Assembly (NCBI GenBank): GCA_947179485.1
Contig: CAMXBY010000012.1
Location: 32,955-96,954 of the forward strand
Length of the DNA stretch: 64,000 nt
Source: Allacma fusca
Lineage: Eukaryota; Arthropoda; Collembola; Symphypleona; Sminthuridae
Reading direction: 5' to 3'
The stretch's first letter is position 1. Each line of letters opens with the position of its first letter. The notes under the pieces are model-generated. The model was given only the letters and a program-made list of their open reading frames with translations. It searched no databases and had not been told where the DNA came from. The position numbers were made by a program, and so were the translations under genes. This document shows positions 14,888-60,170 of this stretch, one piece after another.

Positions 14888-14895
14888 AATCAAGG

Positions 14896-15602
14896 TAGGG
14901 TGCCCAGAAGTCCTGATTTGATCAAGACTGACCTGATTTGACCCAGGGTCATCTGATGACCTGATGAGCTTGAATTTAGTCCTGATTTCACAGTTAGTGA
15001 CAAATTAAACAATTTGTTGGCTTTCAAAGTGACATAAATTTATCGTTACTTATCATAAAATCACTTTACCCCAATAATACTAACAATTGGTAACTATGTA
15101 TATCATGAAATAAATGCTGCCCCCGAGTAAAATGCTTTTAATAGATCAGTTTTGAACCTTTTTAGGGTGGAATCGTCCCTACAGTAAAATAACCTTGTCC
15201 GTACGCCCGTGTGTCCTTCCGCACGACATCTCAAAAACGACTGGACAAATGTCAATGAAATATATTATGTACATAACTTGTATCATCCTTAGTCCTGAGT
15301 TCGTGTTTAATTAAAAACATTATTATATTTCAACGGAAATTTTTTGAGAAAAGCATTCTTGAAATGTTATTAATTTATTATTATTATTGCTTATAAAGTT
15401 GGATTTGCCCCGATAGATGTTTCAAAAACGATTCTGAAATTTCAAAAAAATCTCGAAATTCAGTCTACTTTGATGACGGTAACTGACGCCACTCTATGCT
15501 AAATTGTCATATAGGGACGATTTTTAATTCGTAATAATCTAAACTCGAATATAATTTAACTTAGGAGACCTGATTTGAGAATGGAATTATCTGGGCACCC
15601 TA
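14896..15602. mobile_element. hAT-like MITE, CCTGATTTGA subterminal motif
   Basis: The ends TAGGGTGCCCAGA and TCTGGGCACCCTA are perfect 13-bp inverted repeats. The flanking 8-mers AATCAAGG (14888-14895) and AATAAATG (15603-15610) match at 6 of 8 positions, as expected of an aged 8-bp hAT duplication. The left terminus repeats CCTGATTTGA, CTGACCTGATTTGA and CTGATGACCTGATGA; the right has GACCTGATTTGA. The interior (about 15190-15440) contains a CCGTACGCCCGTGTGTCC-type segment common in invertebrate repeats. No transposase was seen. Confidence 0.75.
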
Positions 15603-16059
15603 AATAAATGTGACTGCAAACTAGCTGGAAATCATCGTTCACACTCCTGCTTGTTACACTCAGCATTACGTAGCCCGTAGGCATCCTGCTAGCAACACAG
15701 CAGGCAAGACCTGTTATAAGGAGTTGGGTCCCCAGAAGGGGTTCAACATAATTAACAACCTTGATGTGATTGAACCTTGAGGTCAGGTGGCACATGCGAA
15801 ATAAAAAAAATCCAATTACGATACTAGGTATCACATTAGTAGATGGGCCATTTTATCAAAATAATTAAATCTCAGCCAAACATTTATGAAACATTTGTAA
15901 TATACTATGTTGTAAAAAAACAAAAACTCAAAATCTCAATTTTTGCTACATATAGCGAACATAAGCATTGTTAACACATTATATATTAAGTGATGTTATG
16001 AAATCCTAAAATGCCTTCAACGTATGCTCACAATTTAATCAACCGCCTGACCCCGCCAC
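15603..16059. other. Interval without recognised gene
   Basis: A 92-codon minus-strand open frame (15834-15556) overlaps the MITE end and shows no motif. Confidence 0.4.
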
Positions 16060-16530
16060 TGGTCTCAACGTGACACGTGACCTTTGATATTGACCTGGTA
16101 ATGGGTCAAAATAATTTAGCTTCAATTTGCATATTGAATCCTCTTTAAACGTAAACTGACCACGTAACATTGGAATATGTCTGGCTTACGCGTGACCGCA
16201 GGTCAAATGCCCTGTGACATTGACCCGGGAATGGAACCCAGTATGTCCAACATATATATTTCAGATCATGGGGTAATTTACCTCAGCCGACCAAGTGTTC
16301 TTAAATCTTGGCCCAATACTTGTTCACGACCTTGGTAAGGCTCATGAGATATGACCAGTGACCTTGACAAGATAATGGGTGGAGACATTTTTTAGTTGAT
16401 GTTCCGAGTCAGGGGACTCTTCAACTCAACCGGCCATCTTACATGGCCCAAAACTTGGTCATCTCTTTGCTTCGTCTCTCACGCGTGACTTTAGTTCATA
16501 TTTCCTTTGACTTTGACTCGGGAAATACCC
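16060..16530. repeat. Diverged tandem repeat, about 120-160-bp unit with GTGACCTTGAC words
   Basis: Related blocks recur near 16068 (GTGACCTTTGATATTGACCT), 16190 (CGTGACCGCAGGTCAA), 16348 (ATGACCAGTGACCTTGAC) and 16483 (CGTGACTTTAG...CTTTGACTTTGAC). Each is followed by GGTAATGGG, GGGAATGG or a similar word. These are degenerate direct repeats. Confidence 0.6.
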
Positions 16531-16860
16531 GTCAATTTTATTTAAATACAATTATTTTTGAGTGGTTTAAATACAATTATTAGTCATTTTTGCATTGTTT
16601 TGAAATACAGATTTTGAACCCTAACAGCAAATTTCTAATCGTCCTCCGTTGATATGCTCTGTTGCCCGGATTTTGCCTTTGCCCTCCAGAAATTAAACAT
16701 TGCATCATTTTTAATGTAAATCGTTTTGGAAACCTTAAAACGCCATGCTTGATGTATCGGTCATAATGAAATATACGTTGTTTCCTAGATATTTACCCAC
16801 ATAGTTTTATTTAGTGAGTTAATGGTCAAAATGTTAACACGGACAACAACTAACTAGACT

Positions 16861-17407
16861 TTAAGATTTTGCCAATATCGATTTGCACGCATAGTAATGA
16901 TAGTTTTCCCATAATCCGTCTGATTGAGTTCGCAAAAATTCTTCTATATCCTCCCTGTTATTGACTTGTTCGGGTATTTTAAGCCCATTTTCAGATTGCT
17001 TGAGCAGTTCCATCGTTAGCTTACATTTATAATCGTCAAATTACATGGTTTTCAAGGTGTCGTCAAATCGAGCAGGGTAATCTTGTTTTGAAACTAGTAT
17101 GCATTCAAGAAACCGCAGGCATACTGAACCGCAATTTACTTCTTTATCTAGAAACGCAAGGGTTGTAAAAATACCTGAAATAACTCAACATACTTACAAA
17201 TTCTAATACATAGCCTGTTGCATGTCTTTGCATTTGGCGGATTCAACATTCTTAATTTCACAACCTTCGTGACACTGCAGAAGTCGCGTCTTAAGCACAC
17301 TTTGAGGTATAGTTTCCGCAGTTGTTACGAGGTCTTGGTGAAATCGTTTTCCTTCTATGGGATATAGGTAAACATTTTCAAACAAATCAGTGTACTCGAT
17401 GTTGCGA
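16861..17407 (-). pseudogene. 3' exons of an unidentified gene, probably decayed
   Basis: One minus-strand frame holds three protein-like blocks. The first (17407-17203) contains DLFENVYLYPIEGKRFHQDL and RLLQCHEGCEIKN. The second (17175-17044) contains FTTLAFLDKEVNCGSVCLRF and ECILVSKQDYPARF. The third (17040-16861) contains MELLKQSENGLKIPEQVNN, DIEEFLRTQSDGLWENYHYY and a final stop at 16861-16863. A plausible 87-bp intron (GTTGTG...TTTCAG) joins CHEG to the second block in phase and skips three stops. A single TAA (17041-17043) remains between blocks two and three although the frame is kept, which suggests one nonsense mutation. Cysteines are frequent (CHEGC, NCGSVC). I do not recognise the protein. 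An acceptor at 17408 fits the phase of the exon at 18692-18872. Confidence 0.45.
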
Positions 17408-17629
17408 CTTCAAATTAATAGACACCCACAAAATTAACATCAAGTTTACAGTATGAAATTTTTTTGCGTAATTTTGTTGAAAGGTTCAAGTCTATCCATG
17501 CGATCAGACCACAAGCCCAAACGAGAACACATTAGAGCATCGTAGGAAAGTATGGTGTTATTTTCAAAATCTTCGGATCAATGTGCCTTCTAATTATCTC
17601 CATACACGCATTGACGGTAAGGGCAGTCA

Positions 17630-18592
17630 TCCAGCAATTTCCGGTGTAGTTACAACAAGTTCCGAAAGTACAACAGGTAGTCCACTTCTAACAAGTAACC
17701 CACGACCCATGCCCACTCGGGATCGGAATGAAATTTTGTGGGTGGTTAGGTACCTGGCCCCATGTCGCAGAGAGAGCAAAAGTATGTGCCATCTCGCCCT
17801 GGTTTGCGCGGGAAATCGCGCAGTTTTAAATTCTAATTCATGAACAAAGGGCCCCCCTGTCCAACTTAAAATTTCCTATGTTAAATCCCATAAGGAAACT
17901 TCATTTTCAAATTTCACGAAAAAAATTAAATGCTTAAAACCTAATTGAAAACCCTTATAATAAAATATAGGTGTGTTTGCAAACTTGGTTTAGGCCATCT
18001 CCTCTGAAAGCCAATGGATGTTTTCAATGATATGAAACACTTAAAATTAAAATCAATAAAGACATTTCCACTAATATTCTACTGGTGTAGTTTGGTGACA
18101 TTGCTAATATAATGTTGTATGGCATATTAATGAGCTGTTACTCATTTCTAGGATTTTCATTTTTTTGCGAAATTTGAAAATGGAGTTCTCTTATTGGATA
18201 TAAAATTTTTAATCAGACGGGTAACCTTATATATTTTTAAAAAATTCTAACGTAAATCCGGTTTCCACCGGAAACCAGGGCGAAATGGCCCAAACCAAGT
18301 TTGAAAACATGCTTATATTGTATTATCTGGGATTTCAATGAGGTTTTAAGCATTTTTGTCGTGAAATTTGAAAATGAAGTTTCCTTAAGGGATTTAACAT
18401 GGGAAATTTTAAGTTGGACAGGGGAGACCCTTTGTTCACGAATTAGAATTTAAAATTTCTGCGAGATGGCACATACTTTTGCTCTTTATGGGACATGGGG
18501 CCAGGTACCTAACCTCCCACAAAGTTTCATTCCGATCCCGAGTGGGCATCGTGCGTGGGTTACTTGTAAGTGTATTTACCACGGTTGCTGGA
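17630..18592. mobile_element. Foldback element with about 310-370-bp inverted arms
   Basis: The left arm (17630-18000) and right arm (18284-18592) are inverted copies: TCCAGCAA/TTGCTGGA at the tips, CAAGTAACCCACG/CGTGGGTTACTTG, GGTACCTGGCCCCATG/CATGGGGCCAGGTACC, and AACTTGGTTT/AAACCAAGTT at the inner edge. The spacer contains a further diverged copy of part of the arm (GCGAAATTTGAAAATGGAGT). No target duplication was resolved. The element lies between two candidate exons of the minus-strand gene at 16.9-18.9 kb. Confidence 0.8.
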
Positions 18593-18691
18593 CCCATTTG
18601 AAAATCGCCTTTATAAGATTGAATATAATGTTCATATTTTTATAGGACTAAATACTAAGATATAAATATTAAAATGTCTGGTAACACGTAC

Positions 18692-18872
18692 CCGCCATCT
18701 CCACGAAAATGATCGGTAATATAAATTATTTGTTCCCTTTCGACTTCACCAGTAGAGACATTTCCACTTAACAAACCCCGAGTGTTTTTCGCGAGGACGT
18801 TTAACCTGCAACTGTATCGTATTTGTAAAGCAATGAACGCAATACAGTTAAACCTCTTTGTAGTCACTTTTT
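18692..18872 (-). other. Candidate internal exon, unidentified gene
   Basis: On the minus strand this 181-nt segment is bounded by an acceptor (ATAATTTTACAG) and a donor (GG|GTACGTG). It is open throughout: KVTTKRFNCIAFIALQIRYS, later LLSGNVSTGEVEREQIIYIT and DHFRGDGG. It ends in phase 2, and the acceptor at 17408 supplies a matching T, giving GDGG-RNIEYTDLFENV across the junction. That phase agreement links it to 16861-17407, with the foldback element in the intervening intron. The protein is unknown to me. Confidence 0.42.
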
Positions 18873-21949: not shown

Positions 21950-22231
21950 TTGGTTTAAACACCACTACCGGAGTAATACTGTGAAATACAACGGTTTGCT
22001 AGTAATAGCACTACCGAAGTATTAGTCAAGACTACGGTTTGCTAGTAATAGCACTACCGAAGTATTAGTCAAGACTACGGTTTGCTAGTAATAGCACTAC
22101 CGAAGTATTAGTCAAGACTACGGTTTGCTAGTAATAGCACTACCGAAGTATTAGTCAAGACTACGGTTTGCTAGGAATAGCACTACCGAAGTATTAGTCA
22201 AGACTACGGTTTGCTAGTAATAGCACTACCG
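21950..22231. repeat. 43-bp tandem repeat, about 6.5 units
   Basis: ACGGTTTGCT recurs at 21991, 22034, 22077, 22120, 22163 and 22206, each followed by AGTAATAGCACTACCG. Inner copies are nearly identical and the first is degenerate. The array lies 5' of the LINE at 22.8 kb. It is followed by two copies of a block with GTGCAAAT(T/C)TAGGGGGAA (22244 and 22315). Confidence 0.92.
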
Positions 22232-31758: not shown

Positions 31759-31766
31759 GTCAGGAA
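31759..31766. repeat. 8-bp target-site duplication GTCAGGAA (left)
   Basis: Identical to 35063-35070 and directly abuts the TIR CAGTGCTCGGCACGGGTA. Confidence 0.93.
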
Positions 31767-32447
31767 CAGTGCTCGGCACGGGTACGAAAAATCGGTACCC
31801 GTACCCGTATCCGTACCCGAAGTGCGGGTATTACAATAACTGGTATCTATACCCGTACCCATACCCGAGTATACGGGTACGAATTTTTCGTACCCGTACC
31901 CGCAATGTAATCGCAATCCATGTACCTGTACCCGTATTGTACCCGTACCCGAAAAATACTCGTAAATTGTACCCATACTCGGGTATCACAGTGTCGTACC
32001 CGTACTCGTACCCGCGTACTTTATCCAGATGTGTCTAAATGTAATACATAGTACGTTATATGTATGTTGAATGTATGACACCTTAGTAGGTAATTTTGAC
32101 TAGCTGGAGCGGTATTTGACATTGTATATTTTCATTGAAGAGTAGAAAAACTACAGGCATTTTTGATTAGAAATATAATTATTATTATCCGCCTTTGAAT
32201 GTTAATGGGTTGATGGGCTTGATTGACTTATTCGGTCTTTTCCACTAATTTTATCATGTGTTCTCTCTGTGTACATATAACTCATTAATATCTTGTTACA
32301 AATATCCGCCTTTTCCTAATCAACTGCCAGTAACCCAAAATAACTTACCATCCAACTAATCAGATCTCTAATTTGTAAAATGTATTAATTGTGTGTAATG
32401 ACGTATCATGTACGTGTCCCACAGACCCTTTATATGTAATTAGTGAC

Positions 32448-32462
32448 AAAGCACTACATTAT
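32448..32462. repeat. 15-bp LINE target-site duplication (left copy)
   Basis: AAAGCACTACATTAT is repeated exactly at 34511-34525. The uninterrupted target survives, with two changes, in hAT copy 2 at 45756-45770. Confidence 0.92.
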
Positions 32463-34510
32463 AATAATAATAATAATATTTATTCAGTCGATTTGGCCTG
32501 TGGCCCTTACAACTTTTTACAGCGTTTTTCTTATTCTAAGTATTTGATTTAATACATTTTGAACTTAACCTATTCTAATTTAAAATTCAGTTTCGCCTTG
32601 ATCAGGTTTTATGGATCGTTGATCTAAACATCTGCGTAATTTATATATACTTCCCTCAGCTTGCTTGCATTTATCCAAAATAGGGATAGCTTGACATAAT
32701 CTTCTCTTGTGTGGTTTGTGTCAAACATTTTAACAATGTAGTTCTCTCTGGTTGTTTCTTCCTCTCTGAAGTCATTTAATAGCTCTCTAAATTGCCGGTA
32801 GTGTGTGCATTCCCACATGATGTGGTAATGATCTTCTATGGTTTCCATATTGCATAGCTCGCATTTGGTTGTTTTTCCTTCGTTTTTCCATCTTTTATAT
32901 ATACCATTTAATATTGTCATTTTCTTTCCTACGTCTATTTTTGGAATCTGTAGCCTTATATTTTGAATTAGTTGTACTGTCTTCCAGTTCAAATTTAACC
33001 CGTAGAATTTACTTGGCATAATGCTTTTCTTAATTATTGCTAGTTGCGTTAGTTTAGGGTTTTCTTGCAGTTCTCTTACATCTTTATTTATTGACCATAG
33101 GAAGTATTTCGCTATGATTGCTTCTGGTGTAATTGTAGTGTGATCTTGTATTATTTGGTTGAATTCATTTTCCATATCTGCTTCTACGAATACATGTTTC
33201 AACTGGGTTAACCAGTTGTATCTTGGTCCCCCTGTTCCGATGGAATTTAGTAGTTCTTGGAAGCAGTTCGTAGTAATTGATGCTTGGGATCTATGTAGTA
33301 TTGTCTTGTAAAGAAATTTAATTGTAGCTTTGAAAAGTATGCATTTGATGTTCGGAACCCCTGTCTCCAGTCTCAGGGCATACCCTGGAGAAATATTTGT
33401 TGTTTTTAGTAGTTTCCGCAGGAAGTTAGTTTGAAACATTTGTATCTGTTCTATGTATCGAAGTCCCCATATTTGCGCTGAATACAGCAATATTGAAGTG
33501 GCTAGGGAGTTGAATAGCTTTATGCATGTTTCAATGTTGTTAATTCGCGCTCTCCAAAAAATTCCAAACAGGTTAGCTTCTGCTCTTTTTGCCTTTCCCA
33601 TAAAGTGGTTCTTAGCTGTATTAAATATTCCTGTTGATTGGAATGGGACTCCTAGATAGGTATACTCCTGTACCACTTCTATTATGTTTTTGTCCCAATG
33701 AAATGTGTCATTTGCACTGTGTCGGCCATTTCTGGAAAAGATTACAATTTTCGTTTTTCCCAGATTGATTCTCAATTTACTTTTTTCGAAAAATTCTTTT
33801 ATAATGTCAATCTGTTTTTGCAAGTCCTTTTGTGTTTCTGACATTAATACAATGTCGTCAGCATACAAAAGGATGATGATTCTGGCCATATGCATTTGAA
33901 CTCCATTTACTGAGCTTTCTTGCAGTATCTTCACGATTTTATCAATATATATGGAAAAAAGTGTGGGCGATAGTGTCTCCCCCTGTAATACCCCTTTCAT
34001 GATTCTGATTGGGTCAGTGTATCCCTGCTGGCTCCTTATTTGTGTTTTCGCTTTATCGTATAACTCCTTTATTACGCTCACTAGGTACCCGTCTAGCCCT
34101 TCTTCCCGTAATCGCTTCCAAAGTTGCGTTTGCTCAATTGAATCGAAGGCCTGACTCAGGTCTACAAACAGTGTGTATAACTTCTTTCCTGGTTTTTTCA
34201 AGGTCTTGCATATTGTGCTGTACAATGAGAAGATGTGCTCTGTGCATCCCTTCCACTTCTGATAGGCGGCTTGGTTATCCGATATTGTTCCATGCATCAT
34301 ACAATGTGACTGGACCCTTCCGGCAAGTACTGTTGTAAATATTTTAACAATTGTGTTCAGTAATGATATCGGCCTATAGTTGCCAGGGTTGTCCTTGTCT
34401 CCTTTCTTGTGAATTGGGACGGTAATAATAGTGCCCCATTCTTCGGGAATTCCTCTAGCCATAATGTTGTTTATGGTTGTAGTCATATGTTGTAGCGTTT
34501 TCTCGTCCAG
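32463..34510 (-). mobile_element. 5'-truncated LINE inserted in the hAT-like element
   Basis: The element is oriented on the minus strand: its 3' end is on the left, with an (ATT)n tail (32463-32478), and its truncated 5' end is at 34510. It is bounded by a perfect 15-bp duplication. The 3' UTR (TTTATTCAGTCGATTTGGCC) matches the old LINE at 9963. The paralogous hAT copy lacks it entirely, which proves insertion. The single long ORF is still open, so this is the youngest coding insertion in the window. Confidence 0.95.
32624..34486 (-). CDS. LINE ORF2 fragment: reverse transcriptase and C-terminal CCHC-type motif
   Basis: The 620 codons contain RT domain blocks in order: IPEEWGTIITVPIHKKGDKD and NYRPISLLNTIVKIFTTVLA (motifs 0-1, residues 13-57), LFVDLSQAFDSIEQ (motif A, about 106-119), MKGVLQGETLSPTLFSIYID (motif B, about 164-183), and LLYADDIVLMSE with the catalytic YADD (motif C, about 207-218). 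The thumb-like region follows. Near residue 540 a C-x2-C-x8-H-x4-C motif appears (CELCNMETIEDHYHIMWEC), typical of LINE ORF2 C-termini. There is no endonuclease because the 5' part was lost at insertion. RT copies LINE RNA into DNA at the nick during target-primed insertion; this copy cannot do so alone. The clade is not assigned. The start shown is simply the first Met after truncation. Confidence 0.95.
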   Translation of the reverse strand: MTTTINNIMARGIPEEWGTIITVPIHKKGDKDNPGNYRPISLLNTIVKIFTTVLAGRVQSHCMMHGTISDNQAAYQKWKGCTEHIFSLYSTICKTLKKPGKKLYTLFVDLSQAFDSIEQTQLWKRLREEGLDGYLVSVIKELYDKAKTQIRSQQGYTDPIRIMKGVLQGETLSPTLFSIYIDKIVKILQESSVNGVQMHMARIIILLYADDIVLMSETQKDLQKQIDIIKEFFEKSKLRINLGKTKIVIFSRNGRHSANDTFHWDKNIIEVVQEYTYLGVPFQSTGIFNTAKNHFMGKAKRAEANLFGIFWRARINNIETCIKLFNSLATSILLYSAQIWGLRYIEQIQMFQTNFLRKLLKTTNISPGYALRLETGVPNIKCILFKATIKFLYKTILHRSQASITTNCFQELLNSIGTGGPRYNWLTQLKHVFVEADMENEFNQIIQDHTTITPEAIIAKYFLWSINKDVRELQENPKLTQLAIIKKSIMPSKFYGLNLNWKTVQLIQNIRLQIPKIDVGKKMTILNGIYKRWKNEGKTTKCELCNMETIEDHYHIMWECTHYRQFRELLNDFREEETTRENYIVKMFDTNHTREDYVKLSLFWINASKLREVYINYADV

Positions 34511-34525
34511 AAAGCACTACATTAT
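34511..34525. repeat. 15-bp LINE target-site duplication (right copy)
   Basis: Identical to 32448-32462. Confidence 0.92.
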
Positions 34526-35062
34526 GAAGACGTTTTGTAAAAAATTTCGTTGAATCCTATTCTCCACAACTATTTTGGTATTATTCCTCGCCTGTGTTTA
34601 TTTATTTATTCTTCCTAAAACATGTTTCCATAAAAGCATTTATTTTAACAACACATTCTCAAATACATTTACTGTATGTTGTAAGGTTAAAAGGGTATTA
34701 ACAATAAGCTATATGTATTCAGAAATACTAAAAATACCGACAAAAGTTTCCAACGTACGGGCATGATGGCAGAAAATTTATCAAAATGTCTCAAATCTCA
34801 ACGTATCCAAATACTCGGGTACAATTGTCACGGGTACAAGTAAATGACCCCATTATACCCGTACCCGGTGGGTATATACCCATTTTGAAATCCTGGTACC
34901 CGTACCCATACCCGTATCCGTACCCAAAATTTGGAGCCGACCAAAGTGTACCCGAGTAGTACCCGGAATTGTTCGGGTACAAAAAATCGGTACCCGGGTA
35001 GTACCCATACCCGTACTCGTACCCGTTTACCCGAGTATTACCCATACCCGTGCCGAGCACTG

Positions 35063-35070
35063 GTCAGGAA
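35063..35070. repeat. 8-bp target-site duplication GTCAGGAA (right)
   Basis: Identical to 31759-31766. Confidence 0.93.
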
Positions 35071-39874: not shown

Positions 39875-39882
39875 TGTAATAA
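39875..39882. repeat. 8-bp target-site duplication GTAATAAC (left)
   Basis: Identical to 40691-40698. Confidence 0.88.
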
Positions 39883-40690
39883 CTAGGGGTTGGCATATCG
39901 GTCATTTTTTAAATATCGTTAATATCGTTATCGTTGATTCTAAAAATGACGATAACGATATCGAAGGACGATATAACGATATTTGTTTCAATTTGAAACG
40001 CATCGGTTAATAATATAAAATAATATATAAAATATAAATCGACCAAAAATGCTGAAGTATTGACTATTAATTAAATACTCACCTTATTACTACTGTTTAT
40101 AACAAAAATGTGACAAAAATGCATTGTTCGCAAAATTATCGAAGAACGTTTCTTTTTAAGGATCCCATACGGAACACCGAGCTATAGTTGGTATTAATTG
40201 AATGAGAACTGGTACTGACAATGAGGATTTACGTAAGGCAAACCAAGTATATTTTAACCTCACTGACAGCATAATTGGCATTAATATTTCTGAAACTGGT
40301 GCGATCAATAAGGAATCACGCAAGTTCCACCAAGTATGTTTTGATTCCAGCCGAAACAAACTTGGTATTAATTACAGAAAAATTAGTTCTGACAATGAGC
40401 AAATCCGGTAAGTTACACCTATGCTTCAACGTATGTTTTTACATACATACGTATGTTTTGAGGAAACCAGGAATTTACATGGTATTATTATGAGCTGACT
40501 GACGTGTTGGTTTGAATTAGGTAATATACATTAAAATGTTGGGGGTGAACCATTATTTGGGGAATTGAACCACGTATTTACGATATGGAAACTGACGGAA
40601 GTTTAAGAGACTTATCATTCAATTATCGTTAAGAAAAAAGTACGATATGGACGATAATATCGTATGGCTATATCGGTATTCCAATGTCTA
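39883..40690. mobile_element. hAT-like MITE, TATCG/CGATA subterminal motif
   Basis: The left end TAGGGGTTGGCATATCGGTC pairs with the right end (reverse complement TAGACATTGGAATACCGATA) as an imperfect TIR, and exact GTAATAAC duplications flank it. Both termini repeat AACGATA/TATCGTT: left TATCGTTAATATCGTTATCG, right ACGATATGGACGATAATATC. The interior (40050-40500) has no transposase; a 69-codon frame there shows internal near-repeats of a GTCAGAACTGGTATTGATAATG-like block. Confidence 0.85.
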
Positions 40691-40698
40691 GTAATAAC
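40691..40698. repeat. 8-bp target-site duplication GTAATAAC (right)
   Basis: Identical to 39875-39882. Confidence 0.88.
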
Positions 40699-44878: not shown

Positions 44879-45030
44879 AGGATGGGAATCGGAATCGGAA
44901 TTATATTCGAAAATTTGAGGATTTTAATTCATATTGGAATCCCAAATAATTCCTAGGAAGTATTTTAATTCAAAATTACATTCAAAAATTTTTTTGGAAT
45001 CGGAATTGGTATTCAAATATTTTTTACTGA
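44879..45030. repeat. GGAATC-rich segment, possible MITE remnant
   Basis: GGGAATCGGAATCGGAATT, ATTGGAATCCC, GGAATCGGAATTGG and GAATTCCGATT recur within 150 bp. The style matches hAT subterminal arrays, but the termini and target duplication are not identifiable. Confidence 0.4.
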
Positions 45031-45221
45031 ATTCCGATTAAAATAAAGTGTTGTTTTCAATGGTATATTTCATCAAGTGTACATACTTAAACACAAATTT
45101 AAAATTGTCTCAATTTTTTACTTACAACGTAAAGTTAATCAAAGAGCATTGGCGAACGTTTTCTTCATCCAAAATGAAAATGCTTCCGCATTCTACGTAA
45201 AACAGAGTCGAATTATTAGCA

Positions 45222-45229
45222 CTTGTCAT
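45222..45229. repeat. 8-bp target-site duplication CTTGTCAT (left)
   Basis: Identical to 46524-46531. Confidence 0.93.
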
Positions 45230-46523
45230 CAGTGCTCGGCACGGGTATGGGTAATACTCGGGTAAACGGGTACGGGTATGGGTACTACCCGGGTACAGAT
45301 TTTGTGTACCCGAACAATTCCGGGTACTACCCGGGTACACTTCGGTAGGCTCAAAATTTCAGGTACGGATACGGGTATGAGTACGGGTACAAGGATTTCA
45401 AAATGGGTATATACCCACCGGGTACGGGTATAATGGGGTCATTTACTCGTACCCGCGACCATTGTACCCGAGTATTTGGATACGTTGAGATTTTACACAT
45501 TTTGATGAATTTTCTGCCATCATGCCCGTATGTTGGAAACATCTGTCGGTATTTTTAGTGTTTCTGAATACATATAGCTTATTGTTAATAACCTTATAAC
45601 CTTACAACATACAGTAAATGTATTTTAAACTGTGTAGCTAAAATATGCTTTTGGGGAACGTTTTAGAAAGCATATAAATAAATAAACAGACGAGGAGTAA
45701 TAACAAAATAGAAGTGGAGAATAGGATTTAAAAAAATTTTGTGCTAATCTTCTTCATAATGTAGTATTTTGACACTAATTACATAAAGAGTCTGTGTGAC
45801 ACACTGATGATACTTATTAGCCACAATTAATACAATTTACAAATTTCAGTTCTGAAAAAGTTGGATGGCAAGTTATTTTGTGTTATTGGCAGTTGATTAG
45901 GACAAGGCGGATATTTGTAACAAGATATTATTGAGTAATATTTAGACAGAGCTACTGATATACGAAAATTAGTGGAAAAGGTCGAATACATCAAGAAGTG
46001 AAAAATCGAGTCGCCAAGTCTCAAGCCAAACCTGCATGTTAGTTATCTCTATGCACAAAAATGCATGTACATGTGGGCTGGGTGCAGCCCATAAGCAATC
46101 AAATGGGATAATAGTAATTTTATTTTCGCTTCTTAAAAACGCTTCTAGTTTTTCTACTCTTTAATGAAAATATACAATTTCAAATACCGCTCTAGATAGT
46201 CAAAATTACACACTAAGGTCTCATACATTATTACATTTCACTTACTATGTATTACATTGAGACAAATCTGGTTAAAGCACCCGGGTACGAGTACGGGTAC
46301 AACACTGAGATACCCGAGTATGGGTGCAATTTTCGAGTATTTTTCGGGTACGGGTACAATGCGGGTACAGGTACATGGGTTGAGATTACATTTAGGGTCC
46401 GGGTACGAAACATTTGTACCCGGATACTCGGGTATGGGTACGGGTATAGATACCAGATATTGCAATACCCGCATTTCGGGTACGGATACGGGTACCAATT
46501 TTTCGTACCCGTGCCGAGCACTG
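45230..46523. mobile_element. hAT-like element, GTACCCG family, copy 2
   Basis: This copy has the same TIR as copy 1 (CAGTGCTCGGCACGGGTA) with an exact CTTGTCAT duplication. It is 1294 bp long and inserted in the opposite orientation to copy 1. The internal part (for example GCATATAAATAAATAAACAG and CATACAGTAAATGTATTTTA) matches copy 1 in reverse complement and has no LINE. Both motif-rich ends translate to Tyr-Pro or Gly-Tyr runs in several frames, which should not be annotated as proteins. Confidence 0.93.
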
Positions 46524-46531
46524 CTTGTCAT
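46524..46531. repeat. 8-bp target-site duplication CTTGTCAT (right)
   Basis: Identical to 45222-45229. Confidence 0.93.
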
Positions 46532-46588: not shown

Positions 46589-47002
46589 TAGGGTTTTTTA
46601 AAAATAAAAACCAATGGTTTAAACCAAACACCTAAAATTTTAATATTTTCAATCCAAAACGCTTATATTTCGTCGTGTTACTGTGATATTGTGTAGTTAA
46701 ACTTTAGTGAAGTAAATAATACGATTAGCTTTTAGTCTTGTACATTTAGAAATTCGGAATCGTTTGTAAAATAAAAAATGCCAAACTTGTGTTTATGCTG
46801 CAAAGTTATCATTAAAATTATATCCAAATTATTAAATATTTAATGCTTTGGGATACTTACTGAGTTTGGGAAATAAGTAAATTTGTTCGAATTCACATGT
46901 TTTTGCGTACTAATGAATGTTTTGGATTGAAAGTTTGTTTAAACCAAAAAAACCTGATTTAAACCAAAAAACCCGGTTTAAACCAAAAAACCCCCAACCC
47001 AG
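46589..47002. mobile_element. hAT-like element, GGTTTAAACC family, copy A (worn ends)
   Basis: It aligns in reverse complement with 49017-50056: ATGGTTTAAACCAAACACCT, TTTAGAAATTCGGAATCG, AACTTGTGTTTATGCTGCAA and the GTTTAAACCAAAAAACC array at the right. The right end CCCCCAACCCAG is close to the TIR of copy B. The left end is eroded and no target duplication is visible. It contains the uninterrupted site (ATATT, 46686-46690) corresponding to the insertion in copy B. Confidence 0.75.
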
Positions 47003-49008: not shown

Positions 49009-49016
49009 GTTCATGT
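49009..49016. repeat. 8-bp target-site duplication GTTCATGT (left)
   Basis: Identical to 50057-50064. Confidence 0.9.
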
Positions 49017-50056
49017 CAGGGTTGGGTTTTTTTTTGTTTTTTTTTTCAAAAAAACCAAACAACTAGATTTTTTGGTTTAAACCGGGTTTTTTTGGTTTAA
49101 ACCAGGGTTTTTTGGTTTAAGCAAATTTTCAACCCAAAACATTCATTAATATGCAAAAACATGTGAATTTGAACAAATTTACTTATTTCCCAAACTCAGT
49201 AAGTATCACAAAGCATTAAATATTTAATGATTTACATATAATTTTAACGACAACTTTGCAGCATAAACACAAGTTTGGCATTTTTCATTTTGCAAACGAT
49301 TCCGAATTTCTAAATGTACAACACTAAAAGCTAATAGTATTATTTACTTCACTAAAGTTTAACCACACAATATTGTAAGGAATAAATACATAGTTGTAAG
49401 AAGTGATTTTAGTCATGTAATAAAATTGTTATTAGTGTTAAAGGTCAGCTCTAGCTGCGTCTAGAGCAGAGTAAAGAATCCCTGACGAGGGACTTCTCAC
49501 GCTCCACTTTTGGACGCGTCTCATCTCATGAAATGATGTAATGATGTATGAATCACACACGACAGTGTTAAAGTGTGTGCAAATCTTATTTGAGAACTTC
49601 AGTCTTAGACTGAGAGCTATTCCTTTCTGTTTGATTTTTAGAATCCTCTGAAATTCCCCTTTTGTTCTATCTTTAAGTTTCTGAGGTTATTGTTGAAGTG
49701 ATTACCATTTCGTTTTCAGTTTCATTTTGAATAAATAATCAGCCTTCGGGTTATCTTATTCAATCATTGTGTGGATTACATTTGACTTTTATTAATTGCT
49801 TTCATCCAATTAATTACATTTTTAGCACGATTTACAACTGATCAAGTTTGGAATGTTACTCAAATGGAGTGACCTCATCTTGACCTTAATAATATCACAG
49901 TAACTGCACAAGTTTTGTGCACGACGAAATGTAAGCATTTTGTATTGAAAATATTAAAATTTTAGGTGTTTGGTTTAAACCATTGGTTTTTATTTTAAAA
50001 AACCGTTTGGTTTAAACCATGGTTTAAATCATTTGGTTTAAACCAAACCAACCCTG
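49017..50056. mobile_element. hAT-like element, GGTTTAAACC family, copy B, carrying an insertion
   Basis: The ends CAGGGTTGGGTTT and AAACCAACCCTG form a TIR flanked by exact GTTCATGT duplications. Both termini repeat TTTGGTTTAAACC. The interior matches copy A except for a 517-bp insertion (49374-49890). No transposase frame is present. Confidence 0.9.
49374..49890. mobile_element. 517-bp insertion inside GGTTTAAACC copy B, LTR-like
   Basis: AATAT is present on both sides (49369-49373 and 49891-49895) and once in the empty paralogous site of copy A, so this is a defined insertion with a 5-bp duplication. It starts TGTAAGG and ends CCTTAAT. It contains AATAAATAATCAGCCTTCGG, resembling a polyadenylation region. 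A 5-bp duplication with TG-type ends suits a solo LTR. Confidence 0.6.
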
Positions 50057-50224
50057 GTTCATGTGCACTTATACACTGGAAATTCCTGAAAATCCCTATT
50101 GATTCAAAAGTTTAGCAATTACTTACATACATACTTGGGGTGATTGTCCTACCATAAAATTCTGGACGGTACGAGATTACAATAACATTTAGTTTTACTT
50201 TCACTTTCTCTCCCAATCCTCCTG

Positions 50225-50433
50225 TACGCATAATTACCTATACCCAAATATCGGGTACGACAAAACGCTGACCTCATACCGGTACCCGAGTACCCCGGTA
50301 AATATTTCCAGTACCCGTATCCATACTTGAAAATAAAATCAAGTATCTGTACCCACAATTTACCCGTACCTGTAATGTACCCAAAACCTATCCCCGTACC
50401 CGAGTACCTATTATTTATATCCGGGTATTACTC
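50225..50433. mobile_element. GTACCCG-type hAT remnant
   Basis: Degenerate GTACCCG words (CCGGTACCCGAGTACC, CCAGTACCCGTATCC, CCCGTACCCGAGTACC) without intact TIRs. It ends where the AAATGCC element begins, so the latter probably inserted into it. Confidence 0.55.
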
Positions 50434-51293
50434 GAGTACTGAGGGGTTGGCCAATTGAAAATGCCCTGCGATTTTTGCTTTTCTAGTTGAAAATGCCAAA
50501 TATCCCCAATTTGTCCAGTTTTTCCTCACTATTGAAAATTCTGGGGATTTTGGGTATTTTCCCTAGGCATTAAGAGTATCTTATCAGATTGTTTAAAAAA
50601 TCATTTAAATTTTTTATGGTTTATTTTTAATAAACACTGAAGAATTTCAAATTCTACTATGCCAAAATAATAACCAGATGAATGAAATGAAAGATGTTCT
50701 CGCGAATTGGTTATGTAAAATTCTTGAATGGTGTAAGGTTATCCAATTGGAACGAATTATTTAATTCCAAATTATTCATAACCGAAAATCTGCTTTTAAA
50801 CTTCGAGAACATGAAAAATGTTTGTTCCTGGCTAAATATTTGTCTCAAAAATCTTTAGTCATAGAAGATTCTAAGATACTTTTCACGAAGCTTCTTTGTA
50901 GGCATCTACGTTAAGATTTGTGTACATTACCGTTAAAATAGGACGCTAGGTAAGTAAATTAGTAGGAAAGTAGGATGTTTTTATCTTGCCATTTTCCCAT
51001 CAACGATCTGACGTATTTACAAAACAATATATTTGAACACTGTGTTTTGAAAATATTATACGGATTAATCTGAATTAAGCAGCATGTCAAATATTGTGAT
51101 TTTAGATCGGAAATATAGGAGCCAAGACAGAATATTTATTTTGTATTACATCTTTATGAAACAAAAATTCATAAAATTTGTCTGAGGTTTGTAATGCCTG
51201 AGACAGCTGAAATTAGACTCAAATCCATCCTCATGAGAGTTTTGAAAACCAAGCACAGATGGCTCCGCTAATAACACCAAAATTATCAAGAAT

Positions 51294-51301
51294 AATCAAA
51301 G
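51294..51301. repeat. 8-bp target-site duplication AATCAAAG (left)
   Basis: Identical to 51797-51804. Confidence 0.9.
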
Positions 51302-51796
51302 TAGTGTTTCTGAACGGTCCAAAAACATGGACTCGACCCGACTCGTTTTCCCGAACCGAAAAAAATCCCTTTTCTGTTCCCGAAACCGGAACCGATATGT
51401 TCGAGTCCGGGACATTTTTGCCTTCCCGGAACCGATCCGGAAAATAAAATCGGTTCCCGGACCAGTTCCGGTTCCTTCCCGAACCGGCAGAAAATGCATA
51501 GGATTCATTTTCATCGATGTCAAAATTGTGTCGCGTTTTCAAATGATAGTTGACAAATGCTTGACAAATGCATGTTTCACGTTTTCATCCAAAAAGGCAG
51601 CTTTACCAAACCCTTCCCGAAAACTTTCGGTTTTGATTTTTGTACCCGAAACCGGACCGAATGTAACGGTTCTTTAAACCGTTGACCCGAAACCGGACCG
51701 AAATTTAACGGTTCTTTAAATCGTTGACCCGAAACCGTACCGGAACCGAAACCGAACCGGAACCTCGGGAATTCCCGATACCGAACAGAAACACTA
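51302..51796. mobile_element. hAT-like MITE, CCGAACCGG motif
   Basis: The ends TAGTGTTTCTG and CAGAAACACTA are perfect 11-bp inverted repeats with exact AATCAAAG duplications. The 495-bp element repeats CCCGAACCG, CCGAAACCGG and ACCGGAACCGAAACCGAACC along most of its length. It is the GC-richest segment in this part of the window. Confidence 0.92.
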
Positions 51797-51804
51797 AATC
51801 AAAG
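51797..51804. repeat. 8-bp target-site duplication AATCAAAG (right)
   Basis: Identical to 51294-51301. Confidence 0.9.
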
Positions 51805-52158
51805 AAGGGAATGATATTGTCGAAAATTTCATAGATTTCTAAAATTGTTTAAATATTTACGACAATAAATGTTCAATGTGCCATAAATGCCCAGGATTGA
51901 AAACGCCCAAAATGCCTTTGCATTTGCAAATGGCCAACTCTGGGTACTTGTAGGGATAAGAAACAGTTCTGCCTTGAAGTTAACAAATGTATATTTATTG
52001 GGAACTTATCTCATAATACGTCTTAAAATAATTTTAATTTTGTGCTACCAATGAAGCTCATTAAATTTAACCTCAAGAACCTGCCCCTTGAAATTTTTGA
52101 TTGATTAGCTCCATTTCATGTCGATAAATAGGCGATCTGGCTGACTCTTGACATGCTA

Positions 52159-52331
52159 CAGTGAACACTTTCTACAAGGGATACCCTTATAAGGGATTTT
52201 TCGGTATAAGGGATCAGGATTTGCAGTTAGGATTCCCATTTACATAATGTACTATGCTTACAAGGGATTAATGTATATAAGGGACATATTTTGCCGGTCC
52301 CTTGAGCATCCCTTATAGTGAGAGTTAACTT
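52159..52331. mobile_element. Pogo/Tc1-like MITE, AAGGGAT motif
   Basis: Left CAGTGAACACTTTCTACAAG and right (reverse complement) AAGTTAACTCTCACTATAAG are imperfect inverted ends with TA on both sides (52157-52158 and 52332-52333). AAGGGAT or its complement occurs about seven times in 173 bp. The TIR resembles those of pogo/Tigger elements. Confidence 0.6.
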
Positions 52332-54493: not shown

Positions 54494-54539
54494 AGTAATT
54501 GCAAACGCATGCACATATAGACCATGTTATTTTTATCAA

Positions 54540-54690
54540 CCGTCTAAGGTCAATCTGAGGTCATGAGAATTCTTGTAACTATTTGAAACCCACTCAGTTC
54601 AACCAGAGGTCGTGGGATTTCTTACCCACTCATGTCATTCTGAGGTCATTTTACTACTTGTGATCCACTTAGTGAGGTCATGTAATCGAT
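54540..54690. repeat. GAGGTCATG-rich direct repeats
   Basis: AAGGTCAATCTGAGGTCATG, CAGAGGTCGTGGG, CTGAGGTCATTTTACTACTT and AGTGAGGTCATG recur about 30-50 bp apart, as in 42495-42690. Confidence 0.6.
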
Positions 54691-54839
54691 TGTGGTGAAT
54701 CAAGGTGAACCAAGGGCAATAAAGAACATAGTTCAGAGAAACATGTGGAGCCAATTTGAGGAAAATCTAACGCAAGTGAACCATACCCACAATTACTTGG
54801 GCAATTTTACATGTGCACTAAGAAATTGTTAGCTTAAAT

Positions 54840-55010
54840 GCCAGGCCCTGTTTTTTAGGGGCTAAGCGAGGCTGAAATAATGTTTATTGCGAAGATCGGA
54901 ATGTCTGCTACTCTGGTTGTTGTCCCGACGATAGCTGCCGATCCAAGATCACCCGGACATTCAAAGTTTTTGTAGGGGCAGATTAGTTAAAAGGTAAGTC
55001 TGTTTTGCTA
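54840..55010. repeat. Dispersed repeat R1, partial copy a
   Basis: CCAGGCCCTGTTTTTTAGGG, GCTGAAATAATG and GACGATAGCTGCCGATCCAA match 56150-56400 (copy b) and 62745-62950 (copy c) in direct orientation. Confidence 0.7.
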
Positions 55011-55370
55011 AATAAATTTGGTCATGTAATTACACATCCAAACACATGCGTTTAGAAGAAGGGAAGTAAAGCTTGAGCCAAGATTTTTCCTTAAGAGTAA
55101 ATTGTGTTTTCCATGATTCGGTAGATGTCGCATAAACTCGCACAGGCGTAATTTGAATATTTTGTAAACGTTTTTTAAAACTTTTGTGGTTGCACACTCA
55201 TTTTAATTAGACGTGGGAATTTTCAATTCATTTAGTTACTATTTTACGCTCACTGGTCCATAGATGCATTTATACATAAACGTTTTAGAGTATTTATATT
55301 TGATTTTTCGCTTTCCTCATGTGAGAACAATATTGGCTATTTGTCGCAGGGAATTAAGTAGATACTAGGG

Positions 55371-55445
55371 ATGCCAATAGTCAGGTCCGAACCATTTATA
55401 ATGGTCAGTTACTGGTCTGGTCCGGCATGATCCAACACTTGGAGC
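55371..55445. repeat. GGTCCG-motif fragment, possible hAT end
   Basis: TAGGGATGCCAATAGTCAGG then GGTCCGAACCA, TGGTCTGGTCCGG. It has a TAG-type start and repeated GGTC words, but the partner end was not found. Confidence 0.3.
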
Positions 55446-55739
55446 AGAACACAGAACCATGGTCCTAAAAGTGCGCAAAATTAAAATTTATGAGTTAACC
55501 AAATACCATGGAACGAATTAAAAATGTCAATTCTAGTGATGAAATGGGAATTTCAATGGATAAAATATGATTATTAAATAACCAGCGATTTATTTTTGTC
55601 CATTTAGTACATTAGGACAAATCTTTTTTTGTTAATCTCTAGGAATTAGATGGTTGAAATGTTTTGTATATATTTCACTTTATTTGCTCATTGTTTTTCC
55701 ATTATAAGTTGTGTAAACTGTGCTTTCCAATATAGAACT

Positions 55740-56575
55740 ATTTGCTATTTTATATAATAAATTATTTATCCTATCTTGGAATAGAAATTTGCAAGGTTTG
55801 TTGTTTAGCGATTGAATTTCTTTAAAATGGGCTCTTAAATAACCTCACGTAGACCCAAGGGATAGCAACTAAAAAGTTTCACCGTCAGATTATTTGCAAT
55901 AAAAAAGCTGCTCCGTTGTTTTGGACATTCTGGTGAGGTTAGTTCAGTCTGGACAATCCGAGGTATTGTAATCAACTCTGATGCATTAATATTAATAGGA
56001 GGTCATGGGATCATTTGATACTCATCATGACCAATAAACGACCATGGCAACATTTGGAGCTATTCGGAGGAACACCTGACTCAAGTGATCCTAAATTACT
56101 GGAACAGATTTTATGCATGCTGAAATGTGTACGAGGAAATGACCTTTAAATGCCAAGTCCTGTTTTTGAGGGGCAAGGTGAAACGAAGTCCAGTATTCTG
56201 AGCGTCCTGATTTTTAGGTTCGTAGCGAAGCTGAAATAATGTACATTGCGAATGTCGAGGTGTCTGCTTGCCTGATTGTTGTCCCAACGATAGCTGCCGA
56301 TCCAATGGCAGCAGGTCAATCGAATTTTCCGCAGGAGTAGACCAGGTAACAAGTAAGAAGCCTTATTTGCTAATTAATTAAATTTGGTCGCGTACATTTT
56401 CAAAATTAGGGGATGCACACTCATTTCAACTAGACTTTAAATTAATTCATATCTAGTTTACTGTACTCTGCTCACTGGAACATTTACAATACCCGGGGGC
56501 GCTTCGCCCCTTAGTGACTCCGCACTAGTGCTCATCACCGATGATTTTTAATTTTGCTCATGTGAGTAAAATTAA
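55740..56575. repeat. Dispersed repeat R1, copy b
   Basis: Collinear with 62333-63152 over about 830 bp in the same orientation. Shared blocks are TTGTTGTTTAG, AAGGGATAGCAA, CTCTGATGCATTAATATTAA, ACTCATCATGACCAATAAAC and GAGGAACACCTGAC, ending with GGGGGCGCTTCGCCCCTTAG and GTGCTCATCACCGATGATTT. The final 70 bp is the best conserved part and contains the hairpin GGGGGCG-CTT-CGCCCC. Confidence 0.85.
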
Positions 56576-57299
56576 ATTAGTTATGATCTGTAATAATTGT
56601 GGTCCTTTTAACGACCTTGAAATAATTTTGTACAAGTTCCCCATTTTATTATATAAATATTGTGAGCAAAAATGTAAAAACATTCAAAATTTTAGTCTTT
56701 CCTGAAAATGACGTTTCTCCATTTACCTGAGTTCTGTTCGATATTTTCTATTCGAATCAAATTTATTCTGCATTGAGAATTTTAAATGCATTTTAAAATC
56801 GGAATGCATTCGGGCGTTATGTATGACGGAAAATTCAAATTTCTGAAATTGTTTAAAAATCGGGGTTTCCGGGTAGTTCCGATTCTTGTTTTTCCCATGT
56901 GGGTGGCTTATGGTGTAGTCAAATAGTGGGTATTTAATGCAACTTAATTGTTGGCAAATTGTTTTTTGATTCCAGCATTTTTTAGATTGACAGGTTTCAC
57001 GATTCCTGAGTAATTGGTAAAATGGTTTTGTGAGGAATTTTATGAAAAAGCTGAAATTTTAAAATGCTTTGAATGTTTACTCAAATTTTAAAATAAAACA
57101 AATATTTGACTCTCATTTGTAGAAAATTTCAAGGGCTTTCAGATGAGTAGAACATGAGATCGTTGCGTCAAATGGTTTAGACACCGACCGCAAAAGGGTG
57201 AATCACAATTTAACCAGAGAATTGTTAAAACCGAACAACCTTATAAATCGGAAAGTAAAAAATTAAATTAATAAAATAAATAGTCTCTAATAATTGTTG
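56576..57299. other. AT-rich interval, no gene recognised
   Basis: No coding signal was seen. Some AAAATTTTAAA-type segments resemble the neighbouring R2 repeat. Confidence 0.45.
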
Positions 57300-59310
57300 T
57301 GGTCTTTTGCATGCCCTTGAAATTTTGTACAAGTTCAAAATCTTATTGGGGAAATATTTCAACGAAAATTCAAAACCATTCAAAATTTAAAGTTTTCCCG
57401 AAAATGACGTTGCTCCATTTCCATGAGTTATGTATATCGAAGTTCTTTGAATTTCCATGAATATAAAAAAAATTAAATCTGGAAGAAACTTTTCTGTCAA
57501 TCCAATTTATATTTTTACCGTTGCCTGGAATGTTTGCAATTTTGTATACAATTTGAATAATATTTTTTTAAAATTTTTACAGATTTAACAAAACAACTAC
57601 AGTTTGGTCCAACACTTGTATATACCTGAATACTTGAATTTTTGTTCATTCCCAAGTAGATGGTCAAATACAGTCCCGAGGAAGTCGGTCGAAATATTTA
57701 TGACATTTGTTGTTGTTTTCTGAGCAATCGTTTTTAAATCCTGTGACATTCTCCCAAAAGATCGTTTCATATTTTATTAGTAAGGATTTGGTTTTTTTAA
57801 ATTGACGCTTAATATTTCTGAGTGTTTTTAACAAATTAGATTTTATTCCACGTTCTCAAATACTTTTATCTCAAGTGTAGGCTAGATTGCGGAAATTTTT
57901 CCACAATTCCGGAAAAGTTGGTTAATATTGTTTTAAATTTCGTTAGAAGAAATATTCTGTAGCAGTTTTCTAGGGACTTGTTCGATAGTGGACTACGTTT
58001 GTTTAATTTCGAGGAAAACCTGTCTTTTCGGATGACACTGTATGGAAATAATTCATAACTTTTCACACATTTTTGAATGTTGTAGCCCCAAATTTTGAAC
58101 CGGAACGTTGACTTTTAATAAAAATTAATCCCAATGAAATTTTTGATCCCAGTGCTTTCGAATATTTTTATCACTGCCTTGTTTTCCTTTACAATATCAT
58201 CAGAAGTCTCTGTCTCCACCATTTTCTTCCATAGCGCTCCTCATTCTCGAATTTCGATGCTTGTCCTATCTGGGAATTCTCAACATAGAGATCAATCAAA
58301 TATCTCCCCAGAATATACAGACGTATTCTCAAAAGCATTAAACCACATTTAAATGACCAAACGTTTTCACTATGCTCAAAGAAGAAAATATGTTAATCAG
58401 TTTCTGGGAAGTTGGTCAAATATTTAGTCAGTTCCCAAATAATTGGCCAAATAGTGTTGTGTAAATTTTTACAAAGTTGGCCAACCAGTTTTTTACCAGT
58501 TCATAAATATTTTTAGAGCATTTTTGCCTTCTCCCTGTACATGGTGAAAGGTAAATATTTTCCAAAAATAAAAATGGAATTACAATTTAGTGGATTTTCA
58601 AACGATCCCTTCATTCAGTAGTTTAGACAAAGCACGGAAAAGAGCAAGATTTAGTCAGAAAATAAAAAATGAACCTCATCAATCCAAAAATTGAGATTAA
58701 ATATATAAAGATGAATTTAGGGCAAACTGAGCTCATAGGACTATACACGTTCTGTAATGAGCTGAAAAACCGCCTTGAGTGAAGCCTAACGCAGGATACG
58801 TCTCGGGAAATAATCACTGCGTCTTCTGGAAGACTGAAAAGTAGAAGATGAAGGCTGGAATTGTGATGCGTGAGTAGAACGCCAGGACGCTTTAGATGTG
58901 TCCCTAAACATTAAAAGTGCCCTTTCACTTTTTCCACTCCGAGATACTTTAACCGTGGAGTCTCAGTTTACTTTTATATGCATGTCGATGGTTCCTTTTA
59001 AAGACTGTCTCAGTGTTGTGTTGGAAACGTTTAGTAGACCCTACCAAAGAAATTCAAAGACCAGGAACAGGGATTCTCAAACTCTTGCACCCGAAGTCAC
59101 TAATTGTAAACGGCATTTGTTTCTATTAAATTTCTCATTTTCCACGTGAGCCAATGTGTAGCTGTGGATCGTTCCTTTTAAAGACTGTCTCGGTGTTGTG
59201 TTGGAAACGATTAGTCGACCTTACCGAAGAAATGGAGAGACCTGGAACAGGGACCCATCTAAAACTCTGTAACAGGCATTTGTTTCTATTTTCGAATTTT
59301 CAAAAAACCG
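57300..59310. repeat. Dispersed repeat R2, copy 1
   Basis: Segments match copy 2 (59640-61080) in direct order: ACAGTCCCGAGGAAGTCGGT, AATCCTGTGACATT, AACAAATTAGATTT, then GACTGAAAAGTAGAAGATGA, GATGTGTCCC, AACCGTGGAGTCTCAGTTT and GACTGTCTCAGTGTTGTGTT. Within copy 1 the last block is itself duplicated (58990-59075 and 59170-59255). It contains the uninterrupted counterpart (57673-57680) of the MITE at 59991. No protein similarity was recognised. Confidence 0.7.
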
Positions 59311-59639
59311 TAACCCTTCCAGCAAAATGAGGCTGTTTAATTTTTAATTCTGTCATTCTTTTATGGACAGTGATTTTTCCTAATTCCTGGGAAGTTCGCC
59401 AGATTTTTGTGTATTTTGCTGAAGATTGCGGCTTGATATTTTTTTCAATGAAAACAAATTGGCTGAAACTTTCTCCCATTTTAAGCACTTTCTGTCAAAT
59501 CCTTTGCTCAATTATACGGTAGCTAGCAAACGAATTTTGTCGTGAAGATTTGGGAATTAGTTTTTTGAATTCCGGGGAGTTGGACGAAATTTGTTTTCAG
59601 TTCTAGGTAGTTAGCACAGGCGTTGACTGAGCAACTAGT
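59311..59639. other. Interval between R2 copies, no gene recognised
   Basis: Overlapping short frames only. Confidence 0.45.
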
Positions 59640-59982
59640 TTTGTAAATTATATTTATTGTAAGGTAGTCTCCGAAATGTTTGTGTAGACTCCTGTGAATT
59701 TCGGCCAAAATCTAATCATTTTTGTCCTCTCAAGGGAGTTGGAACATTGGACTTTCGGGTCTGATATCGTTGAAAAGCCCTGACAATTGGGGAAAATTTC
59801 AGAAATTCGCCATATGTAGATTGGAAAATTTTGCGACAATACTTGCAAATTTGTAAACAATTAGGGTAATATTTTTTGGAAATGTGTACATTTTTAACCA
59901 AACAATAGGAGTTTTATCAAATACGTGCACCTGATTGTGAGTACTTGACGTTTTGTCCATTTCCATGTGGATGGTCAATACA

Positions 59983-59990
59983 GTTCCGAG
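59983..59990. repeat. 8-bp target-site duplication GTTCCGAG (left)
   Basis: Identical to 60171-60178; single copy (GTCCCGAG) in the paralogous site at 57673-57680. Confidence 0.92.
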
Positions 59991-60170
59991 TAGGGCTTCT
60001 GTTCGGGACGGGACGTCCCGAGGTTTTCGGGACGGGATCGGGACAGTTTCGGGACAAAATTTTTGTCCCCATGTTATTTCGGGACGGTGTGGGGATACAC
60101 ATTTTTGTCCCGAGGATTTCGGGACGGAATTGTCTGCGGGACACAAAAATTGTCCCCATTTGAAGCCCTA
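59991..60170. mobile_element. 180-bp hAT-like MITE, GGGAC motif
   Basis: The ends TAGGGCTTCTG and (complement) TAGGGCTTCAA are inverted repeats, with exact GTTCCGAG duplications. GGGAC/GTCCC occurs more than ten times (GGGACGGGACGTCCCGAGG, TCGGGACAGTTTCGGGAC, TTGTCCCGAGG). The duplicated locus at 57.67 kb lacks it, so insertion followed duplication of R2. Confidence 0.93.

Follow-up and report, generated by a model that had tools for sequence, protein, structure and literature searches.

Probable non-autonomous hAT elements with family-specific subterminal words in a 64-kb stretch of Allacma fusca DNA

We analysed a 64,000-nucleotide stretch of contig CAMXBY010000012.1 of the collembolan Allacma fusca (hereafter the window), which holds a set of hAT-like transposable elements with short terminal inverted repeats (TIRs), target duplications of 8 base pairs (bp) and ends containing repeats of a short word that differs from family to family. 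The window is eukaryotic in character (~36% G+C, with reverse transcriptase and endonuclease frames of the long interspersed nuclear element (LINE) type). An earlier note had proposed that the families share one hAT architecture while each carries its own word. The elements and associated features, each family being named after its word, are as follows; outer coordinates of elements include the target duplications.

14888 to 15610 (element 14896-15602), forward strand: CCTGATTTGA element, TIR TAGGGTGCCCAGA, imperfect duplication AATCAAGG/AATAAATG.
31759 to 35070 (element 31767-35062), reverse strand: GTACCCG copy 1 with exact duplication GTCAGGAA, TIR CAGTGCTCGGCACG.
32449 to 34511, reverse strand: LINE-type insertion in GTACCCG copy 1, including one copy of its flanking repeat.
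39876 to 40698 (element 39884-40690), forward strand: CGATA/TATCG element with exact duplication GTAATAAC, 807 bp, TIR matching at 10/14 positions.
45222 to 46531 (element 45230-46523), forward strand: GTACCCG copy 2 with exact duplication CTTGTCAT, 1294 bp.
About 46592 to 46990, reverse strand: GGTTTAAACC copy B, truncated, homologous to copy A.
49009 to 50064 (element 49017-50056), forward strand: GGTTTAAACC copy A with exact duplication GTTCATGT, TIR CAGGGTTGG.
49374 to 49890, no strand assigned: insertion of 517 bp in GGTTTAAACC copy A, with AATAT flanks, absent from truncated copy B.
50236 to 50441, forward strand: GTACCC-rich stretch, sharing ~70% identity with a GTACCCG end across 135 bp, boundaries not found.
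50434 to 51950 (element 50442-51942), forward strand: AAATGCC element, imperfect TIR and duplication, four exact words.
51294 to 51804 (element 51302-51796), forward strand: CCGAACCGG element with exact duplication AATCAAAG, TIR TAGTGTTTCTG.
59983 to 60178 (element 59991-60170), forward strand: GGGAC element with exact duplication GTTCCGAG, 180 bp, TIR TAGGGCTTC.

The two GTACCCG copies lie in opposite orientations. Copy 1 carries word arrays in both ends and is interrupted by the LINE, which is flanked by the 14-bp repeat AAGCACTACATTAT at 32449 and 34512 and whose reverse transcriptase frame (32627-34516) matches RVT_1 with an E value of 3.1e-37. In copy 2 the words are confined to the terminal 270 bp. 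The GTACCC-rich stretch may be an old relative of this family or a separate one. Two copies had been claimed for GGTTTAAACC; they are indeed homologous, but copy B is truncated, and no duplication was found around it by eye or in the strict and loose scans described below. From the coordinates, the CCGAACCGG element is nested within the AAATGCC element.

Short TIRs of hAT elements start YAGNG. A strict scan for this structure, blind to the words (YAGNG ends, TIR of at least 8/14, 8-bp duplication with at most one mismatch), returned five places in the window, all five with an exact duplication and all among the elements described in the earlier note. The controls gave a mean of 0.7 places with none exact (40 Markov shuffles) and no places (reversed window). 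A looser scan (YAG ends, TIR of at least 9/14, duplication with at most two mismatches) returned 36 places, where 20 shuffles predict 28.6, and its inexact matches therefore carry little weight; exact duplications, however, were found at seven places, compared with 0.30 expected from the same number of shuffles. Six of these seven are word-bearing elements belonging to five families. The seventh (5881-6155; 275 bp) has the exact duplication TTGTGATA, a poor TIR of 9/14 and lies outside the word hot spots; it may be a chance match or a wordless element. A further inverted-repeat match with AGGTACCT at 17748-18510 lies within a long fold-back and was not taken as a target duplication. This fold-back (17688-18570, ~880 bp, arm pieces 77-93% complementary) may represent either a rearrangement or an element with long TIRs that belongs to a different class.

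The tips observed were CAGTG, CAGGG, TAGTG, TAGGG and CAGAG, the exceptions being the right end of the CGATA element (TAGAC) and the left end of the AAATGCC element, which lacks YAG. The P, Merlin and Mutator superfamilies, which also leave duplications of 8-9 bp, were provisionally set aside because the tips are YAGNG. Exact duplications flank six copies, one more than the earlier note had counted, and are imperfect in the CCTGATTTGA element (6/8, with a TIR of 13/14) and the AAATGCC element. Position 2 is T in five of the six exact duplications and position 7 is A in five, a joint pattern with a chance of ~2e-4 if the positions are independent, and none has a central TA. They thus match the consensus nTnnnnAn, a mark of the Ac family according to PMC8961557. 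Taken together, these results bear out the shared architecture with distinct words in five families, whereas the case is weaker for CCTGATTTGA and AAATGCC.

Word enrichment was assessed with a sliding scan for over-represented hexamers, for which the maxima of five shuffles were 5.2-6.1. Both ends of both GTACCCG copies scored 27-32 for CGGGTA/TACCCG. Elsewhere, CGGGAC scored 22, the CCGAA/CCGG element ~10.5, ACGATA 10.8 and 7.2, and GGTTTA 5.8-8.8, while ATCAGG of the CCTGATTTGA element (5.9) fell inside the shuffle range. Ten of the 19 word hot spots (score of at least 7) overlap the six elements with exact duplications, which span 11% of the window; the other nine fall outside them, and some of these are tandem repeats. 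With up to one mismatch allowed, the ends of copy 1 carry 22 and 21 GTACCCG words and those of copy 2 carry 19 and 20, whereas the middle parts of the two copies (695 and 754 bp) have none.

Further word-rich places were noted. At 52160-52330 an AAGGGAT/ATCCCTT cluster (AGGGAT score 7.7), with a left tip resembling CAGTGAAC, may be another word family. A GGAATCGG-rich stretch at 44880-45040 may be one end of yet another; its ATCGGA score of 6.1 equals the shuffle maximum. A 43-bp tandem repeat (5.6 copies, 98% matches) occupies 21991-22231.

The first word tends to stand at a set distance from the tip. When each family is represented by one exact word, chosen by the analyst, 13 of the 16 ends (11 of 14 with GTACCCG counted once) have their first word starting 12-18 nucleotides from the tip. 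It starts further inward at the left ends of GGTTTAAACC (nucleotide 58) and CCGAACCGG (50) and at the right end of CCTGATTTGA (29). Among GTACCCG words one strand predominates, and it is the same one at the two ends: the ratios are 17:5 and 16:5 in copy 1, and 5:14 and 5:15 in copy 2, which is inverted. The same holds for CCCGAA (3:0, 4:0) and CCTGATTT (3:0, 1:0; four words). Exact AAATGCC words also share a strand (2:0, 2:0), but not when one mismatch is allowed (2:3, 5:1). No common strand was found at both ends for GGGAC (7:2, 2:2) or CGATA (4:3, 3:2), and for the GGTTTAAACC word, which is self-palindromic, strand polarity has no meaning.

To compare the two GTACCCG copies, they were aligned with the LINE removed from copy 1, a word base being any base of a TACCCG intact in either copy. 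Substitutions affect 3 of 183 word bases, compared with 31 of the 345 remaining bases in the 270-bp ends and 104 of 681 bases in the middle (words versus other end bases, Fisher 6e-4). None of 514 shifted word masks reached three or fewer differences, and neither did any of 1000 simulated neutral descendants of copy 1, generated by uniform substitution and masked in the same way. This conservation of the words is the pattern expected from selection for mobility.

Palindromes were also found close to the tips. Perfect palindromes of 12-16 bp lie within nucleotides 6-45 at 4 of 16 ends, compared with 1.6% of 3000 random segments. They are the 16-bp TTTGGTTTAAACCAAA from nucleotide 10 of the right end of GGTTTAAACC copy A, TCGGGAATTCCCGA from nucleotide 19 of the right end of the CCGAACCGG element, CGGGACGTCCCG from nucleotide 19 of the left end of the GGGAC element, and CATTTGCAAATG from nucleotide 11 of the right end of the AAATGCC element, the last holding only part of the word. 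With gaps allowed, a palindrome or inverted word pair is present at one end in six of the seven families, whereas their opposite end has only a weaker one or lacks it.

The class of element, and the fact that its words vary, are already known from Ac, Tol2, Hermes and the CGG-binding proteins; the interest here lies in several unrelated words on one layout. Like Ac/Ds of maize, the elements have short TIRs, 8-bp duplications and words in the outer parts of nonautonomous copies. In Ac, AAACGG hexamers in the outer 200 bp bind the transposase cooperatively, and nonautonomous copies exist (PMC3260210). Unlike Ac/Ds, the words here are different ones, several families with unrelated words occur within 64 kb, and all are known from DNA only. 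The earlier note saw a departure from known hAT elements in arrays extending over hundreds of bases; this distinction is weak, since Ac requires ~200 bp at each end and Tol2 200 and 150 bp (PMC10368747). The ends of Tol2 of medaka carry five short words in their first 50 bp, its activity falls once its words are mutated, and the perfect palindrome AAGTACTT directly follows its left TIR (PMC10368747). Six of the seven families here may resemble Tol2 in this respect, with a palindrome or inverted pair just inside one end, whereas the Tol2 word is AAGT. Binding specificity varies among hAT DNA-binding domains, whose motifs match the subterminal regions of their own elements (PMC8097297). As for the CGGBP/hAT-19 proteins, CGG is contained in three of the words, and the ends of these three families have a CGG/CCG density of 72-95 per kb, that of the window being 12.8; in contrast to the CGGBP/hAT-19 work, which starts from proteins, only the DNA words are known here. 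Tol2 encodes its own transposase, and the host of Hermes is the house fly.

Hermes offers a parallel for the palindromes: its left end, but not its right, has a palindromic pair, which two BED domains bind cooperatively (PMC10368747). Its BED sites lie just inside the TIR, and its words are arranged asymmetrically between the ends (PMC10368747). By our reading of the same source, Hermes words are opposite when the ends are read inward, and therefore on the same strand overall; the repeats of Kat1 differ in polarity between ends (PMC4763223). A palindrome or inverted pair just inside one TIR in six of the seven families described here may be the counterpart of this arrangement, but the GTACCCG arrays appear denser close to the tips than those of Hermes, whose word is AAGT.

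On this evidence the elements are real and belong to a known kind, and their words most likely serve as binding sites for transposases. Very probably, the elements are non-autonomous Ac-type hAT elements, with the words as predicted sites for the BED fingers of their transposases. Under this model, a transposase encoded elsewhere in the genome would cut at the YAG tips and leave the 8-bp duplications, while its N-terminal BED zinc finger would read the family word, repeated in the outer 100-270 bp. The end with a palindrome or inverted word pair inside the TIR would be recognised first, as proposed for Hermes, and additional words would increase local transposase binding. Different words would correspond to different BED specificities, so each family would depend on a transposase of its own or on several close relatives; several transposases would be a plausible reading of several words. 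Arrays may change by single words or by duplication of ~40 bp, with selection for mobility preserving the words.

Several results weigh against this interpretation. The 20 window frames tested (17 of the 54 frames of at least 90 amino acids and three shorter frames inside elements) yielded neither a hAT nor a BED domain. The words were picked after the sequence was seen, and the CCTGATTTGA element, in addition to its imperfect duplication, has few words (four at up to two mismatches). The conservation test rests on a single pair of copies and was weaker under four other word definitions (Fisher 0.004-0.03; 8, 3, 2 and 0 of 514 shifts as low), and homogenisation within arrays could also reduce word divergence. 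For palindromes and inverted pairs, the combined p is 3e-6 when the rest of the window serves as control but only a modest 0.023 against windows inside the same arrays, which are the fairer control. With that control, five families fell short of significance individually, with values of 0.475 for GTACCCG, 0.82 for GGGAC (six windows), 0.18 for both CGATA and AAATGCC (the AAATGCC control windows taking in part of the nested CCGAACCGG element), and 1.0 for CCTGATTTGA, which lacks any inverted pair with arms of at least 5. This test required at least two G or C per arm, and the A/T-only hairpins so removed include a T/A one at the left end of GGTTTAAACC that scores 7.0 unfiltered. Finally, mutation of inner words in Hermes caused no dramatic loss of activity (PMC10368747), so long arrays need not be bound throughout.

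One alternative is that the arrays are simple or tandem repeats, expanded within hAT elements by slippage and duplication and playing no part in transposition. It would account for the two 6-bp indels in the ends of the GTACCCG copies, each of one word unit, and for the tandem units of 42 bp in CCGAACCGG, 41 bp in GGGAC and 12-27 bp in the GGTTTAAACC copies. Yet Tandem Repeats Finder is silent at the GTACCCG ends, where the words occur in both orientations instead of uniformly head to tail and are missing from the middle, and word bases have diverged ~5-fold less than other end bases. We consider it very unlikely. An expansion unrelated to any transposase, which the earlier note had named among the outcomes that would overturn its proposal, is unlikely for GTACCCG in particular, because its words are better conserved than their surroundings. 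A single hAT lineage, mobilised by one transposase that reads only the TIR, could also have left families whose words have drifted apart. Most tips are indeed YAGNG, and TTGGC occurs near one tip in both the CGATA and the AAATGCC family. However, a BLAST search of the window with eight queries (seven elements and the GTACCC-like stretch; E 1e-3) gave no match between families, the only other matches being the GTACCC-like stretch to the GTACCCG copies and one T-rich GGTTTAAACC match outside any element. Word conservation between the GTACCCG copies also speaks against it, and we judge a single lineage of this sort quite improbable. Finally, the words might be sites for host proteins, such as insulator or replication factors of the BEAF/DREF kind, recruited by the elements. 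The CGATA clusters lend themselves to this reading, as described below, but a separate host factor would be required for each family, and the fixed distance from tip to first word points to a transposase complex. This last explanation appears extremely unlikely.

Relatives were also sought outside the window. The seven TIR patterns matched 3, 5, 0, 3, 0, 0 and 0 stretches of viral contigs, none of the 11 with a dense word array: eight had at most two copies of a word within 250 bp of the match and three had scattered words. Because dense arrays were absent, these matches were taken as chance. A literature search with the word and TIR strings returned no transposon paper by title. Elsewhere in the window, an open frame at 363-806 on the reverse strand matches Pfam AAA_34 (E 5.8e-11), a domain that we take to occur in strawberry-notch-like host proteins. 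The blocks 55891-56571 and 62485-63154, ~6.6 kb apart, are 82-91% identical, which suggests a dispersed or tandem duplication.

In the CGATA element, nine CGATA/TATCG words are packed into roughly the first 100 bp and another six lie towards the right end, ~600 bp away. CGATA is the site of BEAF and part of that of DREF. It agrees with the published description of a BEAF dual-core-like element (PMC2605929), which asks for at least three CGATA in 200 bp and another cluster no more than 800 bp away. Groups of three CGATA in 200 bp also occur at three other places in the window. No exact TATCGATA, the DREF site, was found in the element, which has six one-mismatch sites. The BED finger is named after BEAF and DREF, both of which have been called domesticated (PMC3606216). 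We treat this match as a lead only, since five matching bases among seven families and several BED sites could easily arise by chance.

Two broader ideas follow, both of them speculative. The ends of hAT elements may obey a code that is independent of the word itself: a palindrome or inverted pair of the family word inside one TIR would mark the end bound first, further words would lie on the same strand at the two ends, and only the word would change with the BED finger. As a general rule this seems rather unlikely. Jointly with such a code, the specificity used by BEAF and DREF of Drosophila might persist in the mobile CGATA element, their site having come from a transposon end; this too we offer as an outside chance. 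In the literature consulted, most of it freely readable, no description was found of a palindrome confined to one end as a rule among hAT families, nor of hAT termini built from CGATA. If the rule holds genome-wide, the binding word of each hAT transposase could be read from DNA sequence alone, and BED-finger sequences could be paired with words across families to yield a recognition code. It would also provide a test of the generality of the one-end-first model of Hermes, and of the origin of the sites used by BED-type host regulators.

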